Shown here: positions 10,893 through 20,205 of the stretch, piece by piece
Position numbering within the stretch: the stretch's first letter is position 1
Layout: every line of letters starts with the position of its first letter
Source of the DNA: Candidatus Methanoperedens sp.
GTDB taxonomy: Archaea; Halobacteriota; Methanosarcinia; Methanosarcinales; Methanoperedenaceae
Direction of reading: 5' to 3'
NCBI GenBank assembly: GCA_026552955.1
Contig: JAPMTS010000046.1
Coordinates: 1 to 36,117 of the forward strand
DNA length: 36,117 nucleotides
Translations under genes and position numbers: made by a program
The notes under the pieces: model-generated
The model's input: only the letters and a program-made list of their open reading frames with translations
What the model was told of the DNA's origin: nothing
Databases searched by the model: none

Positions 10893-12101
10893 ATGATGGA
10901 AATTATCCTGATCCTATTAATTATCCTGGTATTCGCAAGGGCATTCCGGTGGATCTTTGCCATGATGAAGCAGCCCTCAGTTATTGGTGAACTCTTTGCA
11001 GGGATTCTCATAGGCCCATCTATTCTTAATCTAATAAGCCCCACAGCGAAAGGACTCGATATATTGGCGGATCTTGGCATTTTCTTCCTGATATTTTTTG
11101 CAGGAATGGAGATGCGAATGGCCAGTATGAAAGAATATTACCGTGCGATCATCATCGCATTGATGTCGATCTTCTTCTCGATTCTTGCAGGTATGGCAAT
11201 AGGAAGGTTGTTCAATCTTGATTTAATAAGTTCATTATTTGTAAGCATCGTTTTTGCTCTTACTGCTCTACCTATAAGTGTCAGGATCTTGATGGATATG
11301 GGAAAAATGAATTCTCCCATAGGCAATATAATTGTTACTTCCGCAGTCATTGACGATGTCTTTAGTTTTGTCTTTCTGGCGATTGTACTTTCCATTGCAA
11401 AAGGGGCTTCAAAAACACCTGATGCAGGATATGTTCTGATGACAATTATCAAAGTAGCTATATTTTTATTAATAATCTATATTCTAAATAGATTATTGAC
11501 CGCTAAAAAAGGATTTTTGCCGGGGGGTATAACGCTGTTATTCAGCAAACTGGATAAAGAATCCCAGTTCTTTGCTGTCATTATCTTTGGTATTTTTGCA
11601 GGTTACATTGGGGAATTGCTTGAGATTACTTTCATCATAGGTGTTTTTTATGCCGGGATCCTTATAAAAAAAACAACGATCGGTATAGAAGGATATGAAC
11701 ATTCCTATAATGTGATATCCTCCATAACGTTAGGAATTTTTGCGCCGATCTTTTTTGTTTATATGGGTATATTGCTTGATATATCTATGATCTTTGATTA
11801 TTCGGACATATTATCAGCAAAGAACCTCAATCAAGCATTATTTCTCCTGGCAGCCATCCTGTTTGCAACCGCAGGAAAAAGTGGAGGCGCATTTTTAGGA
11901 GGATTACTTGCCAGATTAAAAACAGCCGATTCCCTGGCTGTGGGATTCGCGTTAAATGCAAGAGGAATGGTTGGACTTGTTATCGCCGGAGTAGGATTAA
12001 AAGACGGACTGATAAATATGAATATATACGCTATGCTGGTAATGTTGTGTATTGTAACTACGATCATAGCCCCGATCGGGCTAAAACGGTTTATTAAATA
12101 G
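10893..12101 (+). CDS. CPA2-family cation/proton antiporter (Kef/NapA-like)
   Basis: A 402-residue integral membrane protein with about 11-13 predicted helices. QPSVIGELFAGILIGPSIL at 27-45 is the CPA2 entry signature. The ion-binding aspartate pair is D154-D155 in TSAVIDDVFSF, as in electrogenic NapA-type antiporters. LNARGMVGLVIAGVGL near 350-366 is the conserved late helix with the RGM motif. There is no C-terminal RCK/TrkA-N domain, so it is a bare transporter. It likely exchanges Na+ or K+ for protons. The start is ATGATG with the second Met as alternative. It is monocistronic and divergent from secF. Confidence 0.88.
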   Translation: MMEIILILLIILVFARAFRWIFAMMKQPSVIGELFAGILIGPSILNLISPTAKGLDILADLGIFFLIFFAGMEMRMASMKEYYRAIIIALMSIFFSILAGMAIGRLFNLDLISSLFVSIVFALTALPISVRILMDMGKMNSPIGNIIVTSAVIDDVFSFVFLAIVLSIAKGASKTPDAGYVLMTIIKVAIFLLIIYILNRLLTAKKGFLPGGITLLFSKLDKESQFFAVIIFGIFAGYIGELLEITFIIGVFYAGILIKKTTIGIEGYEHSYNVISSITLGIFAPIFFVYMGILLDISMIFDYSDILSAKNLNQALFLLAAILFATAGKSGGAFLGGLLARLKTADSLAVGFALNARGMVGLVIAGVGLKDGLINMNIYAMLVMLCIVTTIIAPIGLKRFIK

Positions 12102-12311: not shown

Positions 12312-12331
12312 TTGTGCCTGTTGGAGATATT

Positions 12332-14143
12332 ATGAAAGAATTAATGGAATATGATAAAACAAAATTAATAGAACTATTATGGGAAAGCGATCCTGAGATC
12401 CATAGGATACTGAGATCAAGCAATAAATTACAGGAGGCACGGAACAATCTTTTTGATCATTTGAACGATATAGAACGTCATCTTTTTAATATATATTCAG
12501 ACAAACATTTTAAGGATAAGAATATCCTGGAGAGAAATAATGCAAAGGAATGCATACGGGTTTTCAAGAATGTCATAAGAACGGAAAATGAAGAAATTAC
12601 AAATTATTCAGCCTTGAATTCATTATACAGGACAGCAAAGAAGAAAGCAAAATCCAACAGCTTAAATGATGGATTTTTCCTGGAATTTATTAACCTGTCC
12701 AGGGGAATTAACTGCGAGTCTGGAGCGTATGCGGAAAAAGAAGCCCCCTTATTTTTAAGCCTGACAGGGCAAAATGCTACAATGGAACGCATGAAAATAC
12801 TTGACGAGTATTCTTCAAAAATGGAACATTATTTCCTGAGATATAAGACCGGAATGGATAAGGAACTAATAGAAGAAAGAAAAAATAATAAAAGATCAAT
12901 ACTGGATTTTTTTAATGCAAGTGAAAAGGATTGGCAGGATCATACCTGGCATATCAAAAATATAATCTCAGATATTGATACCCTCCATGATCTGGTGTGG
13001 TTAAGTAACGATGAGGTAAAAGGACTGGAATGCGCACGAAAAAATCGCATACCTTTTCAGATCACTCCGCATTATCTCTCCCTTTTTGAAAAGAAAAACT
13101 CAGGCAAATATGACCATGCAATAAGAGCACAGGTCCTGCCGGGTGAGAATTACTGCTGGAATTATATCCAAAGCAAAAATCAAGGAACTAATCTTGATTT
13201 TATGGGTGAAAAATCCACAAGTCCAACAGACGGAATAACCCGAAGGTATCCGCAGATACTCATTCTAAAACCTTTTGATTCATGCCCGCAGATATGTGTG
13301 TACTGCCAGAGGAACTGGGAAATCACAGATATTAAAGATGCGGTTTTTTCAAAAGAAACGATGAGGAATGCCATTAACTGGATAAAGGATAATCAAAACA
13401 TAAAAGAAGTCCTTATCACAGGAGGGGACCCGCTAACACTTGATGACATTTCTATTGATTGGCTGCTGTCGGAAATCTCAGATATCGGTCATGTCGACAG
13501 GATCAGGATAGGTACAAGGATTATCGTGACACTGCCGCAGAGGATCACAGAAGGACTGATACATATATTTGCCAAATACCATGAATTGGGGACAAGGGAA
13601 TTATGCATCGTTACACATTTTGAACATCCGACCGAACTTACCCCGGATTCCCTGGAAGCTATAAAGAAAATAAAAAAACTCGGTATTAGCGTGTACAATC
13701 AGCAGGTTTTCACATATTATAATAGTAAAAAATATGAATCGTGTTTTTTGAGAACAGTGTTGAAAAAGTCAGGGATCGACCCTTATTACACGTTCAATGC
13801 AAAAGGAAAAGAGGAAACAATAGATTACCGCGTACCCATTGCACGGATCGAACAGGAAAGAAAAGAGGAAGCAAGGTTCCTCCCCGGTCTGGTGAGAACG
13901 GACGAACCTGTTTTCAATGTCCCAAGGCTTGGGAAATCAAATCTTCGCTCATGGCAGGACCATGAAGTAATAATGATACTGGAGGACGGAAGGAGAGTCT
14001 ACCGTTTCTATCCATGGGAATCCAAATACGCTCTTGTTGAACCCTATAATTATACGGATGTTTCTATATATGACTATCTCAGGAGATTGAAGGAAGACAA
14101 TGAAAATGTTGATGACTATTCTTCTATCTGGTATTATTTCTGA
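12332..14143 (+). CDS. Long KamA-family radical SAM protein (lysine 2,3-aminomutase-like)
   Basis: A 603-residue protein. Residues about 205-603 match the lysine 2,3-aminomutase fold: DWQDHTWHIKNII, then ITPHYLSL, the SAM-cluster motif CPQICVYC (C318, C322, C325), ITGGDPL, and RIGTRIIVTLPQRIT. The first about 200 residues are a helical extension absent from AblA (about 410 residues). The PLP-lysine region, PGGGGK in classical enzymes, reads VFNVPRLGKSNL, so K535 probably holds PLP. The two substrate-binding aspartates of lysine 2,3-aminomutase are not conserved (FNA and FNVP where CDL and VDAP are expected). The substrate is thus probably not lysine. ATG 12332 is chosen because GGAG lies 5 bases upstream; an in-frame GTG at 12314 has no such site. 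Confidence 0.8.
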   Translation: MKELMEYDKTKLIELLWESDPEIHRILRSSNKLQEARNNLFDHLNDIERHLFNIYSDKHFKDKNILERNNAKECIRVFKNVIRTENEEITNYSALNSLYRTAKKKAKSNSLNDGFFLEFINLSRGINCESGAYAEKEAPLFLSLTGQNATMERMKILDEYSSKMEHYFLRYKTGMDKELIEERKNNKRSILDFFNASEKDWQDHTWHIKNIISDIDTLHDLVWLSNDEVKGLECARKNRIPFQITPHYLSLFEKKNSGKYDHAIRAQVLPGENYCWNYIQSKNQGTNLDFMGEKSTSPTDGITRRYPQILILKPFDSCPQICVYCQRNWEITDIKDAVFSKETMRNAINWIKDNQNIKEVLITGGDPLTLDDISIDWLLSEISDIGHVDRIRIGTRIIVTLPQRITEGLIHIFAKYHELGTRELCIVTHFEHPTELTPDSLEAIKKIKKLGISVYNQQVFTYYNSKKYESCFLRTVLKKSGIDPYYTFNAKGKEETIDYRVPIARIEQERKEEARFLPGLVRTDEPVFNVPRLGKSNLRSWQDHEVIMILEDGRRVYRFYPWESKYALVEPYNYTDVSIYDYLRRLKEDNENVDDYSSIWYYF

Positions 14144-14397: not shown

Positions 14398-15156
14398 ATG
14401 ATAAAAAAAAATAAGCGCCCATCATTGGAGAATATTATAGAAAGTGAGGATCTGTTTTTAGATATCCTGCACCCTGGCGGATTTGAAATAACCCGGGAAC
14501 TTGCACAACTCTGTCACATCGGAAAAGTAATTAATGTCCTTGACGTGGGTTCGGGGACTGGTGAAAGCGCTTTTTACCTTGTAAGAAATTTCAACTGCCA
14601 TATAATCGGAATAGATATCTCAGATCGTATGATCAAAAAGGCAAAGAGAAAAGCAATAGACCATGGCGTAATAATACAGTTTAAGAAAGCTGATGCCCAC
14701 GACCTGCCTTTTAAAGATAATACTTTTGATGTAGTTATTTCGGAGTGCACAACCAGTATCCTGGATAAGAAGAGGGCCATAGAGGAAATGGCAAGAGTTA
14801 CTAGATCGGGGGGCTATATAGGCATTCATGATATTTGCTGGAAAAAAGATACTCCGGAGCACCCTAAACAGAAACTTGCAGAAATTGAATTCAGGAAACC
14901 GGAAACCCTGGATGGTTGGAAAACCCAATTTGAGAAAGTCGGGTTGATAGACATTATGATCAAGGACAGATCAAGCTTGATCCCTGAATGGGAAATAAAC
15001 ATATCGGAAAAGCTGGGTTTACTCGGGCGGTTGAAAATATTACTTAAGATCATTAAAAATTGGGGAATCGGGGGATTAAGGAAAGTTATGGAATCCAGAA
15101 GAATATTCCATAGCCATTATACCGGTTATGGGATCATTGTGGGAAAGAAAACATGA
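14398..15156 (+). CDS. Class I SAM-dependent methyltransferase
   Basis: A 252-residue Methyltransf_11/25-type enzyme. NVLDVGSGTGESAFYL (motif I) lies near 48-63, GIDISDRMIKKAK gives the acidic motif II, and ADAHDLPFKDNTFDVVISE gives motifs III-IV near 97-116. ARVTRSGGYIGIHD is the post-motif strand. It resembles small-molecule (UbiE/sterol-like) methyltransferases; the acceptor is not readable from sequence. The C-terminal part after 190 is helical and basic, possibly membrane-associated. The last codons overlap corA by 4 bases (ATGA), so the two are translationally coupled. Confidence 0.82.
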   Translation: MIKKNKRPSLENIIESEDLFLDILHPGGFEITRELAQLCHIGKVINVLDVGSGTGESAFYLVRNFNCHIIGIDISDRMIKKAKRKAIDHGVIIQFKKADAHDLPFKDNTFDVVISECTTSILDKKRAIEEMARVTRSGGYIGIHDICWKKDTPEHPKQKLAEIEFRKPETLDGWKTQFEKVGLIDIMIKDRSSLIPEWEINISEKLGLLGRLKILLKIIKNWGIGGLRKVMESRRIFHSHYTGYGIIVGKKT

Positions 15157-16235
15157 GTTTGGGCCCAGGGCAAAATGGAATGCGTAAGAGAAGGTCAACT
15201 AAAACAGGTCTTCCTCCGGGAGCATTGGTTCATATCGGAGAGAAAAAAGCAGAAAAAGTGAAGATCAATATCCTTGGCTATGATGAAAATCAATATGAGG
15301 AAAAAGAAGCCAGGACTATTGAGGAATGTTTTCCCCTCAAAGATAAGCCAACGATCACATGGATAAATATTGATGGTCTTCACCAGGTTGATATAATCGA
15401 AAAGATCGGGAAGAAAATTGATCTCCATCCTCTCATTCTGGAAGATATTCTTAACACTGAGCAGCGCCCTAAAATCGAAGATTTTGAGACCTGCATCTAC
15501 ATTGTTTTAAAAATGCTATATTATGATGAAAAAACAAATGAAATTGATTCAGAGCAGGTCAGTATAATTTTCGGACACAATTTTGTTATTTCATTCCAGG
15601 AAAAAGAAGTAGATGTTTTCAATCCGCTAAGAGAAATAATCAGGACACATAAAGGCCGTATCAGGAAAATGGGAGCAGATTATCTTGCATATAGTTTAAT
15701 AGATACAATCGTTGATGGCTATTTTCTGATCCTTGAAAAACTTGGAGAGAATATCGAAGATGTGGAAGAAATCATGATGGCGAATCCCTCACCTGAAACG
15801 TTAAAGGATATTCATAAATTAAAAAGAAGGATGATATCCCTGCGTAAGTCGGTGTGGCCTCTACGAGAGGTAGTCAGTGCCCTTGAAAGATCCGAATCAT
15901 CGTTGATCCACGACCAAACACAGATATATCTCAAGGATGTTTATGACCACACTATCCAGGTGATTGATTCAGTTGAGATAAACAGGGATGTGCTTTCCGG
16001 TATGCTTGATGTTTACCTTTCAAGCATCAGCAATAAGATGAACGAGATCATGAAGGTTTTGACGATAATCGCAACGATCTTTATTCCCCTGACTTTCATA
16101 GTAGGGGTCTATGGAATGAATTTTGAATTTATGCCTGAACTTACATGGTACTGGGGTTATCCGGCTATCTGGGGTGTAATGCTCCTTATTGGCATTTCGA
16201 TGCTGTTTTATTTTAGAAAAAGGAAATGGATATAA
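15153..16235 (+). CDS. corA: CorA-type magnesium/cobalt transporter
   Basis: A 360-residue CorA protein. The cytosolic N-terminal alpha/beta domain carries LHPLILEDILNTEQRPKIE near 91-109, a standard CorA signature, followed by long helices. Two C-terminal membrane helices (about 303-320 and 335-354) flank the selectivity motif YGMNF at 320-324. The C-terminus is basic (FRKRKWI). Length and layout are those of pentameric CorA channels for Mg2+ (also Co2+/Ni2+). The start overlaps the upstream methyltransferase stop; a Met at residue 10 is an alternative. Confidence 0.95.
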   Translation: MSLGPGQNGMRKRRSTKTGLPPGALVHIGEKKAEKVKINILGYDENQYEEKEARTIEECFPLKDKPTITWINIDGLHQVDIIEKIGKKIDLHPLILEDILNTEQRPKIEDFETCIYIVLKMLYYDEKTNEIDSEQVSIIFGHNFVISFQEKEVDVFNPLREIIRTHKGRIRKMGADYLAYSLIDTIVDGYFLILEKLGENIEDVEEIMMANPSPETLKDIHKLKRRMISLRKSVWPLREVVSALERSESSLIHDQTQIYLKDVYDHTIQVIDSVEINRDVLSGMLDVYLSSISNKMNEIMKVLTIIATIFIPLTFIVGVYGMNFEFMPELTWYWGYPAIWGVMLLIGISMLFYFRKRKWI

Positions 16236-16273
16236 ATATAGGGAACTGTATTTTAAGATAATGGAGTACAAAA

Positions 16274-17464
16274 ATGAGATTTCTTTATGGCGATTCTACT
16301 GAATTCGACCTGCAAATCGATTTCCTGAGACTTTTAAATAATTTTATAGACACCGGTGTAAGAACTATAAAATATGAAAATGCGATTTTCGATCTCAAGA
16401 ATTCTATTATTGAAAGAAAAAAATATAATACTTCGGTAATTGAAGATATGAATGGGTTTTTAGTAAATATCGAAACGGCTATTTCGGAATCAGTTGCCAG
16501 TAGCAAAGAGCAGGAGACCTTCGTTAAATATGCAGACAAGAGCAAAGAATTATTTAATAAATTTATCGAAGAAAGCAAAACAAAATTATCAGATGAAATA
16601 GAAAAGGAAATAGCTCAACTGGAAAAAAAGATCAAAGAGGCATGTGAAGAGAACAGGAAGATCCTGGAGTCTTTCTTTATCTATGATCCAATACCAATAA
16701 TAGAAGAAAATTATACTATCAAGGCAGCAGAAAAAGGCTATTCTGCAAAATTGAAGATAGACGGTGAGGGTGGGATTTCCAGCCTTTTTCACATTGCATC
16801 ATCAGAATCTCCGTTCTGGAGAAATCATGTCAGAGCACGTGATTTTGTAAAAGATGTCCAGATCCCTGCCAGGTTGAAGAAACCTTTTCTTAAAAAAGAA
16901 CCTGTCCCTGATATTGTAAATATAAATGATTTCATTATTGTTGATCTTGTTCTCTCTGATAAAGAGCTTGAAGTTGTTTTCAGGAAAAGACTCGATAGTA
17001 AGGCTGAGGCGTTCAGATTGAAAATGAAATTAGAAAAGGAATTTTCAGTTGAAGTATACGAAACAGAAGATAACGGAACAGAGAGAAGCATCGAAAATAT
17101 TCCCGAATTGAAAAATGAATTGAATTATTTAAGACTTCAGGAGCTTGGAATAAAGATAATCGAAAAAACAAAATATCTTTATCCAAAGAAACAAAAGTTG
17201 GAAACCATATTACTGGAAGAAAAGGATGTATTTGAAGAAAACCTTGTTTTTGAGTTAATGCAGAAAGTCGCAGAAATCTTTGCCCCTACCATTTCTGATA
17301 TAAGAAAACACAGTCCTTCAGGCGAAGAACTCTCCCTCAAATCTGAAGATGAACACGGGGCAAGACATGAAATATATCTTAAAAAATCAGAAATAAAAGA
17401 AAAGCTCAATGAGATAGGAGATAAAGGTAAGACTTTGTCAGAATTTCTTAACATAATTATTTAA
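16274..17464 (+). CDS. Coiled-coil protein of unknown function (RFLYGDSTEF N-terminus)
   Basis: A 396-residue soluble protein. It opens with MRFLYGDSTEFDLQIDFL, a compact motif I associate from memory with uncharacterised proteins in other phyla such as Myxococcota. Residues about 40-135 are a charged helical coiled coil (SIIERKKYNTS to EACEENRKILES). After that comes an alpha/beta region with ARLKKPFLKKEPVPDIVNINDFII, and a C-terminal helical part with KLETILLEEKDVFEENLVFE. There is no Walker motif, no membrane segment and no recognisable catalytic motif. GGAG at 16263-16266 precedes the ATG by 7 bases. It is the first of three consecutive plus-strand genes of unknown function, possibly one complex. 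Confidence 0.7.
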   Translation: MRFLYGDSTEFDLQIDFLRLLNNFIDTGVRTIKYENAIFDLKNSIIERKKYNTSVIEDMNGFLVNIETAISESVASSKEQETFVKYADKSKELFNKFIEESKTKLSDEIEKEIAQLEKKIKEACEENRKILESFFIYDPIPIIEENYTIKAAEKGYSAKLKIDGEGGISSLFHIASSESPFWRNHVRARDFVKDVQIPARLKKPFLKKEPVPDIVNINDFIIVDLVLSDKELEVVFRKRLDSKAEAFRLKMKLEKEFSVEVYETEDNGTERSIENIPELKNELNYLRLQELGIKIIEKTKYLYPKKQKLETILLEEKDVFEENLVFELMQKVAEIFAPTISDIRKHSPSGEELSLKSEDEHGARHEIYLKKSEIKEKLNEIGDKGKTLSEFLNIII

Positions 17465-17513
17465 CCTTTGAAGCACTAAACCGTTTAATAGTGAATCATC
17501 AAGAGGCAGTAAT

Positions 17514-17756
17514 ATGGTACGATTAGAACGTGAAGGGAATTCATTCGTGTTCATTACTGGAAAAACGCAGCCAGCACAGGATATAAATATTCTGATAAGT
17601 GCATTATCAGAACTGCAAAATAGTACACCTGATACCTCTAAAATAAAAGAAGGGCTTTTGTTTATTGATAATTCGAACGAGTTCGATATTCGAAATGAAA
17701 TTAAAAACCTTCTCAGAAAAGCCCTTGAAATTGAAGGAACAAGCTTACAGATATAA
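17514..17756 (+). CDS. 80-residue protein of unknown function
   Basis: A small soluble protein: MVRLEREGNSFVFITGKTQ, a helix through ISALSELQN, a strand KEGLLFIDNS, then a helix to the end. The order strand-helix-strand-helix suggests a small alpha/beta unit. No family is recognised. Shine-Dalgarno GAGG at 17502-17505 precedes the ATG by 8 bases. It lies 49 bases after the coiled-coil gene and 15 bases before the next one, consistent with one transcript. It may be a small subunit or adaptor for its two larger neighbours; this is inference. Confidence 0.6.
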   Translation: MVRLEREGNSFVFITGKTQPAQDINILISALSELQNSTPDTSKIKEGLLFIDNSNEFDIRNEIKNLLRKALEIEGTSLQI

Positions 17757-17771
17757 GCTGATATTTTATTA

Positions 17772-18854
17772 ATGCCAAAATTATTCCTTATCCCCATCAT
17801 TGATGTCCTGGAAGTACATGATGCAGTTATTAGGGACTGGCTGAGTGGTCTTGAAGAAACTGCCATAAAGGAGCATCTTGAATACCCGTTCAGGCTGGAG
17901 CGATTTTTTCCTGAAAGCGCAAGACTTGCACTGGTAAATGGGAATAAAGTCCACGATGAAATCCTTACCTTATTTAATAGTATTGATCCGCATGCGGTTT
18001 TTCTTAATATTTCATCAGATCTCTATGAGCTGGAAAATAGATATAATAAAAGGCTGATATCGCCTCAAGAATTCTGGCAGGAATATTATGAGAACATCTC
18101 AAAAGATATAAGCGAGCCTGCAAGAACACTTTATAAGATTTACCTGAATGAGATCATCGATAAAAATACGAGGCTCATAGAAAGTAAAGAACGTCTTCCT
18201 TTGAATCTCCTTTTTTATGGGATCAGTATGAGATCAAAAGACCAGCTTATTCCGGTTTATGAAAAAGCTTCCGAGATGGTCGAAGATTTTACCTTGCATA
18301 TGGTACGGGCAGTTAATGAAATAATGAATCTTCGTGAAAAGCCAAAACACCTCTGGCATAGTTCATTAAATGCCACAAGGGTGGGGATCTCGTATGAAGA
18401 AACTGAAAAATTTTATGATGAACTCTTGAGCAGATTAAAAAGACTGCTTAAATATAAAGCGAGGGAGTATTTCGTTAAGATCCTGTGGGAACAGGCCAGA
18501 AAATATGTTGCCTCCCATGAAGAATTCCTTGATCATAAAATAATAGAAGATGAAACTAAAATTTCAAATATTTCAGAGGGACTAACAATTCTGGAATTAC
18601 AGTCAGAGCTCTCTGAAATAGTGATACTTTGCCAGCCTGCGGACTATACTTCGATCCTTGATTTCTTAAAAAATAATATGGACACCAGGTTTTCCATTGC
18701 ACAGATGAGTCTTATCGGGCTTTTTGAAAAAATGAGGCCGTTTATCCAGAAGAACAGGATAATGCAAAACAATTATGATATCGCGTTAAATATTCTTGGG
18801 CGCGAGAAACCTAAAAGATTCATCGGTCACAGCGCCGTTCTTTTTCCGAAATGA
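17772..18854 (+). CDS. Helical protein of unknown function
   Basis: A 360-residue, almost entirely helical soluble protein. It starts MPKLFLIPIIDVLEVHDAVI and carries repeated aromatic/acidic helices (PQEFWQEYYENISKDISE, RLLKYKAREYFVKILWEQAR). There is no nucleotide-binding motif, no membrane helix and no metal-ligand cluster. It ends with a short basic strand (KRFIGHSAVLFPK). No family is recognised. It is the third gene of the unknown module and converges on the MgtC/DUF4010 gene. No clear Shine-Dalgarno site is seen before ATG 17772, so translation may be coupled to the small upstream gene. Confidence 0.65.
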   Translation: MPKLFLIPIIDVLEVHDAVIRDWLSGLEETAIKEHLEYPFRLERFFPESARLALVNGNKVHDEILTLFNSIDPHAVFLNISSDLYELENRYNKRLISPQEFWQEYYENISKDISEPARTLYKIYLNEIIDKNTRLIESKERLPLNLLFYGISMRSKDQLIPVYEKASEMVEDFTLHMVRAVNEIMNLREKPKHLWHSSLNATRVGISYEETEKFYDELLSRLKRLLKYKAREYFVKILWEQARKYVASHEEFLDHKIIEDETKISNISEGLTILELQSELSEIVILCQPADYTSILDFLKNNMDTRFSIAQMSLIGLFEKMRPFIQKNRIMQNNYDIALNILGREKPKRFIGHSAVLFPK

Positions 18855-18909: not shown

Positions 18910-20205
18910 TCAGGAATAAGTTATAATGGTTCCCCATATAACCAGAACAATTCCTCCAACAATTACAAAGCGTGTGAATGTCTTATTGATCAATTCGCCA
19001 AGCTTTGGCGGACCTGACCATTTAACCAGTATCATCTTATTTCCAGTACTTACCAGGCTTGCAAGGATCGCAGTTATCGCCCCTGTGCTGTATGAAACAT
19101 CACCATTTACCGCAAGTGTTGCTGCTGATGCCGTTACTACAGCGCTGCTTACAAAACCGCCCAATGCAGTCGCATAAACACCGGCTGCACCTGCCCAGAT
19201 GTTTGCGAATTTTGACACAATGGATAATCCTGTGAAGCCAAAAGCAAATTGTATGGCTGGAGAAAGCGCGAACGGGGATTGCAATTGGATCGATTCGTTC
19301 ACATGCGAATTATTTTTTGATCTAAAAACTTCAACCGCAGAATAGATGACCACAAATACCAGGGGAATTAGTATATAAAAAAATATTTTTCCGCTTCGAT
19401 CCACGATCAATGCGATAACAAGGTTCCTGATAAGCATTGTGGCATTGCACATTATTATTCCCTTGAAACTGGATTCGATCAAATCGTATCGCTTTTTTGC
19501 TATCGTGCAAAGTGCAGCTGTTGTGGCTTCGCTATTAACAAGCCCGCCCAGCAGACCGGAGACGGGTATTCCTTTTTCAGTCCCCATATTTTTCATTATT
19601 ACGAAGCTGGCAAAGCTTAACGTTGCAACAAATATTACGATGTAAAGTAGAGTCCTCGGATTGATAACATCCATATATAATGCATCAGGGGTCAGCGGAT
19701 ATAGTATAAAAACCACTGCAAGGAACCGGACAGCGCTTAAAATTTCTTCATCCGTAAGTTTTATGGCAAATGAATGAAGCGGTTGTTTTTCTGCAAGCAA
19801 GAGAGTGATAATAACAGCTCCGGCAACAGCAGGGATGAATAACTCATAGGATATCAAAACACCAAGAAGGAAAGTGCAATATAGTGCAATAGGACCAGTG
19901 ATACCCGGTGTTTTTAGAATTACATTTTTAATATAGATAAATAATAGTGATATGCCTGCAAAGAATGCAAGAGATATGAGAAGTATGCCGGAATTGATTT
20001 TTATTGCAAGGAATGAAGAGATCATTCCTGCAATGCAGACTATGGTAAATGAGCGAACTCCCGCGATCAATTCTATTTTCTCAGGCCGCCTGTGTTCTCT
20101 TTCAATACCGATAAGAATTCCAATAAGCATAGCAAGGGCTAATTTCTTAAAGAAATCAAAATTGACATCCATATTATTGAAAAACTGCGGTACTAAGTCC
20201 AGCAT
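18910..20205 (-). CDS. MgtC/SapB-DUF4010 membrane protein
   Basis: A 431-residue integral membrane protein with about 12 helices. The N-terminal third is an MgtC/SapB domain: LALAMLIGILIGIEREHRRPE near 22-42 and GVRSFTIVCIAGMISSFL near 49-66. The C-terminal part is DUF4010-like, with VSGLLGGLVNSEATTAALC near 215-233 and a late TASAATLAVNGDVS motif. This fusion is widespread in bacteria and archaea and its transported substrate is not established. The gene is 51 bases downstream of the DUF1786 gene on the same strand, but an AT-rich TATA-like stretch in that gap suggests its own promoter. Confidence 0.88.
   Translation of the reverse strand: MLDLVPQFFNNMDVNFDFFKKLALAMLIGILIGIEREHRRPEKIELIAGVRSFTIVCIAGMISSFLAIKINSGILLISLAFFAGISLLFIYIKNVILKTPGITGPIALYCTFLLGVLISYELFIPAVAGAVIITLLLAEKQPLHSFAIKLTDEEILSAVRFLAVVFILYPLTPDALYMDVINPRTLLYIVIFVATLSFASFVIMKNMGTEKGIPVSGLLGGLVNSEATTAALCTIAKKRYDLIESSFKGIIMCNATMLIRNLVIALIVDRSGKIFFYILIPLVFVVIYSAVEVFRSKNNSHVNESIQLQSPFALSPAIQFAFGFTGLSIVSKFANIWAGAAGVYATALGGFVSSAVVTASAATLAVNGDVSYSTGAITAILASLVSTGNKMILVKWSGPPKLGELINKTFTRFVIVGGIVLVIWGTIITYS

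Follow-up and report, generated by a model that had tools for sequence, protein, structure and literature searches.

The window, a stretch of 36,117 nucleotides from a Candidatus Methanoperedens genome (contig JAPMTS010000046.1), contains three consecutive open reading frames (ORFs), called A, B, and C here, and several flanking genes and elements:

10893..12101, plus strand: CPA2-type cation:proton antiporter gene, upstream of A, assigned by homology to L065:7247-8452
12314..14143, plus strand: gene for a KamA-family radical SAM enzyme of 609 aa (KamA-609), co-localized with A in the genus
15153..16235, plus strand: CorA magnesium transporter gene, the immediate upstream neighbor of A
16231..16239, plus strand: TATAAATAT, a TATA-like stretch and candidate separate promoter of A, proposed from the sequence only
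16274..17464, plus strand: gene A, 396 aa, defined by the ORF list, an alignment, and a structure model
17449..17470, plus strand: TAACATAATTATTTAACCTTTG, a TATA-like conserved element upstream of B and a putative promoter, at the junction of two units
17514..17756, plus strand: gene B, 80 aa, paired with C and preceded by its own conserved upstream element
17772..18854, plus strand: gene C, 360 aa, restricted to Methanoperedenaceae among the searched genomes
18910..20205, minus strand: MgtC/DUF4010 membrane protein gene, convergent to C

The three ORFs lie on the same strand, with gaps of 49 bp between A and B and 15 bp between B and C, just as the first-pass annotation had described them when it proposed a three-gene module of unknown function. 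Because their proteins are conserved across related genomes, the ORFs represent real genes. It also holds that none of them matches a recognized family. Profile searches in Pfam, NCBIfam, PHROGs, and PADLOC gave no significant match for A, B, or C, and the single NCBIfam match in total, for B, was well under its cut-off. Nothing significant was found when profiles of the three proteins were searched against the sequences of solved structures. Against the anti-phage defence models of PADLOC, the coiled coil of A gave only weak matches (E 0.013 and above), and B and C had none. Neither viral contigs with A or C nor plasmids with A were found.

The idea of one module did not survive comparison within the genus. 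Of the 31 genomes of the Methanoperedens group, 17 have A, whereas B and C are each present in 30. A and B-C are on one contig only in the window genome (G000) and its sister FeB_1 (G019; record L061), that is, in two of the 31 genomes, a count to be read with the splitting of some genus assemblies into many contigs in mind. In the remaining 15 A-carrying genomes, A and B-C are on different contigs, or B-C was not found (G023). In G014, for example, an assembly of about 10 contigs, A is on a contig of 546 kb and B-C on one of 721 kb. A was not detectable in 14 genomes of the genus, and B-C is retained in all 14. Linkage of A, B, and C as an operon across several independent genomes was not observed among the 31. 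B is located just upstream of C on the same strand in every one of the 31 C-carrying genomes, of which 30 are in the genus and one (G032) is from another genus of the family. The presence profiles of A and B-C differ, and so do their neighborhoods. A and B-C are most likely two independent units that have been neighbors only since recently, and what looked like a three-gene system reflects chance adjacency. What stands of the "undescribed system" is that the genes are undescribed and that B-C is a conserved pair; A is no part of it. When a single genome is read alone, two units that were joined only recently can mimic an operon.

The junction itself is informative in this respect. In the window, TAACATAATTATTTAACCTTTG coincides with the last codons and the stop codon of A (stop at 17462-17464), and both the window and G019 have AAC ATA ATT ATT TAA (N-I-I-I-stop) at the 3' end of A. 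The same TAACATAATTATTTAACCTTTG is kept upstream of B in genomes where A is not adjacent (G020, G003, G017, and G021), and G018 and G002 have a variant in which the first T is replaced by G. In species with A elsewhere, the element is found about 45-65 bp before the start of B. Its A-T rich core resembles an archaeal TATA box and is probably the promoter of B, and conservation of this block in species without A as a neighbor argues for a separate candidate promoter between A and B. Since TAACATAATTATTTAACCTTTG is conserved where A is located elsewhere, yet forms the 3' end of A in the window, A seems to have landed beside an independent unit. The simplest history would be a rearrangement in the common ancestor of the window genome and G019 that fused A to the region upstream of a pre-existing B-C unit, so that the 3' end of A came to lie right on the putative promoter region of B. 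A may also have a promoter of its own, as TATAAATAT lies 35-43 bp before A and overlaps the stop codon of CorA.

B-C is a family-specific conserved two-gene unit, confined to Methanoperedenaceae in all genomes searched. In a phylum sample of 394 genomes, C occurred only in the three that belong to the genus. Of the loci fetched around B-C, 22 contained a gene of the MgtC/DUF4010 family, which encodes a fusion membrane protein and keeps its convergent orientation relative to B-C in most of the genus. In five genomes (for example, at L051:7144-7974), a gene of 275 aa separates C from the mgtC-like gene, and its product resembles, by eye, a membrane serine protease of the SppA/ClpP type. B was considered as a KaiC-like ATPase and rejected; its score was 18.6 bits against a cut-off of 232.2, matches were obtained in 3 of 15 members, and the Walker A GKT is not conserved. 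C had been described as a helical protein, and this was not confirmed, as the structure model of C, made from two sequences, reached a pLDDT of only 40 and was unusable. Our best guess, held with low confidence, is that B and C may form a heteromeric cytosolic complex with a housekeeping role specific to the genus. Being a genus-wide pair, B-C could mark a trait particular to Methanoperedens.

Gene A belongs to an old, uncharacterized family of Methanosarcinales. Its relatives were found in ANME-2 groups and in all sampled Methanosarcinaceae genomes but one, which often carry two copies, and none was found in sampled archaea outside Methanosarcinales. In addition, relatives appear in records of Myxococcota or Deltaproteobacteria, where they are sporadic (5 of 141 sampled genomes of that phylum). 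The N-terminus RFLYGDSTEF, pointed out earlier from the window alone, is real and is a signature of the family, M[RK][YF]L[YF][GQ]DS. Within an alignment of 51 sequences, M1, D7, S8, E352, R364, and E366 are invariant. An AlphaFold2 model of A (pLDDT 92.8, pTM 0.84) predicts a helical hairpin within residues 17-135, a beta domain (142-272), and a C-terminal alpha/beta part (277-392). The coiled coil noted in the first-pass annotation corresponds to this predicted hairpin, whose helices span residues 17-75 and 80-135. The invariant residues all map to two places, the N-terminus and the beta hairpin of the C-terminal part. This suggests one conserved polar site, which may be the working site of the protein. 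No membrane segment was predicted and no nucleotide-binding domain was found in A, and a fold search of PDB and viral libraries with the model gave no match at E<=0.001.

Within the genus, the genes adjoining or near A encode CorA, MscS, DUF1646, CPA2, a sodium symporter, universal stress proteins, and KamA-type radical SAM enzymes. In seven loci of the genus, a CorA gene of the window type flanks A. Where a genome has both A and a KamA-type gene, the two are no more than 20 kb apart in 8 of 13 cases (0.37 expected); for the CorA ortholog, this holds in 8 of 12 (0.21 expected). The genes also co-occur. KamA-609 is found in 12 of 17 A-carrying genomes vs. 1 of 14 A-less genomes (p=0.0004; p=0.007 for near-complete genomes only), and CorA in 12 of 17 vs. 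2 of 14 (p=0.002; p=0.03 for near-complete genomes only). Multi-spanning membrane proteins in general were not significantly enriched among the neighbors of A within the genus alone (p=0.32). The KamA-609 of the window has an N-terminal extension of about 200 aa; it scores above the cut-off of the KamA subfamily and below the equivalog cut-offs for lysine, glutamate, and arginine aminomutases. In two Methanoperedenaceae genomes, DUF432 genes adjoin A (L072:29-760 and L073:5114-5821), the copy in L073 being next to an MscS-like gene, and DUF432 is possibly a further partner of this neighborhood.

One locus of the genus, L068, connects A to a published operon. Its gene order is an MscS-like gene (365 aa), a lysine aminomutase gene (441 aa), an acetyltransferase gene (289 aa), a KamA-609 remnant, CorA, and A. 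The ynaI-kamA-ablB osmolyte operon was reported as salt-induced in Ca. Methanoperedens Vercelli Strain 1 (PMC11337218). The first three genes of L068 match it in their three lengths, in the adjacency of the first two, and in the 41 bp gap after ablB, and judging from this match L068 probably comes from Vercelli Strain 1. A (L068:6001-7188) starts 2.5 kb downstream of ynaI-kamA-ablB on the same strand. The region after ablB was called genes of unknown function (PMC11337218); directly after ablB, L068:3584-3976 is a fragment of the 609-aa KamA-type protein.

Outside the genus, in Methanosarcinaceae, the main copy of A has a co-directional tyrS-like gene upstream in 20 of 20 fetched loci, and a gene like tRNA-His guanylyltransferase (thg1-like) usually precedes it, both names having been read by eye. 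A CPA2-TrkA antiporter is directly downstream of the main copy in six loci. Second copies in this family adjoin genes for a cation P-type ATPase, TrkA (with TrkH alongside), a cation-chloride cotransporter, CNNM, or an SDF symporter. At L204:3457-4983, L195:2610-4913, L121:1372-3485, and L196:6322-8850, second copies are each by a different ion or sodium-coupled transporter gene. A also borders Na/H exchanger genes in Methanosarcinales outside the genus. When each protein family was counted once, ion-transport families made up 10 of 73 families next to A vs. 4 of 135 found only at a distance of three or more genes (p=0.005), an enrichment that is support rather than proof because the classes were picked after the neighbors had been seen and the related genomes are not independent. 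A less biased count of multi-spanning neighbors gave a weak enrichment (p 0.03-0.04 by family). In Myxococcota, there is no widely recurring neighbor of A and no shared theme. A conserved neighborhood of A with osmotic and ion homeostasis genes was found in Methanosarcinales, for gene classes that were partly defined post hoc.

We consider it probable, with moderate confidence, that the locus consists of two independent transcription units, with A most likely encoding a soluble protein that assists or regulates cation and osmotic homeostasis, and B-C being a separate operon. The first unit would be A, placed in the genus within a neighborhood for ion and osmotic stress (KamA, CorA, MscS, and CPA2). 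Its product would present the helical hairpin on the beta domain, and the N-terminal strand together with the beta hairpin near the C-terminus would make up the putative polar site. The second unit would be the B-C operon, whose two genes are fixed in the genus beside the convergent mgtC-like gene. The family of A is structurally distinct, and a part for it in ion and osmotic homeostasis is plausible. If A is such a stress factor, it would be a previously unnamed component of salt adaptation in anaerobic methane-consuming archaea and their cultivable methanogen relatives. A bolder version, in which A would serve the inorganic ion transporters of Methanosarcinales as a general cytosolic partner, have a fold unseen in solved structures, and adjust different channels and pumps under osmotic stress, seems unlikely to us.

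Other explanations for the locus have to be weighed against this. A might be a passenger in variable chromosomal islands that are rich in stress and transport genes, without any functional tie to them. Its neighbors differ by species, 14 of the 31 genomes in the genus lack it, and the Myxococcota loci have no common theme; however, A is repeatedly found by different ion-transport families in separate lineages, co-occurs with KamA-609 and CorA, and is near-universal in sampled Methanosarcinaceae, so that we regard the passenger explanation as doubtful. A role in translation or tRNA metabolism is suggested by the tyrS-like gene at all 20 main-copy loci, usually with a thg1-like gene before it. 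No such neighbor is seen in Methanoperedens, in ANME-2, or at the second copies of A, so the linkage may be one inherited arrangement, and such a role appears quite improbable. The cytosolic complex of a scaffold, an adaptor, and a helical partner that was first proposed for A, B, and C draws on their common strand, their short gaps, and the conservation of the order in FeB_1. It fails the linkage check that was put forward with it, as in the 15 other A-carrying genomes of the genus A and B-C are on different contigs or B-C was not found; with linkage in two of 31 genomes, 14 genomes that have B-C and no detectable A, and a separate conserved element before B, it is largely refuted, and we give it very little credence.

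Several known systems invite comparison with these proteins. For C, the four hydrophobic strands are spaced, by eye, similarly to those of the TraB/PrgY/GumN (TraB/Tiki; PF01963) family, but an hhalign comparison of C with 30 archaeal TraB proteins gave a profile-profile probability of 0.3%, and none of 16 C members had a TraB Pfam match, a comparison limited by the low diversity of C; this assignment was rejected. A resembles soluble regulators or accessory subunits of ion transporters, such as TrkA, in having no predicted membrane segment and in being encoded beside many ion-transporter families. It differs in that no nucleotide-binding domain was found in it, and no sequence or structural similarity to them was found. 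As for the ynaI-kamA-ablB operon, A is outside the operon as described and has no match to any enzyme of that pathway, whereas its position shortly downstream in L068 and its co-localization with KamA-type genes elsewhere in the genus bring the two together.
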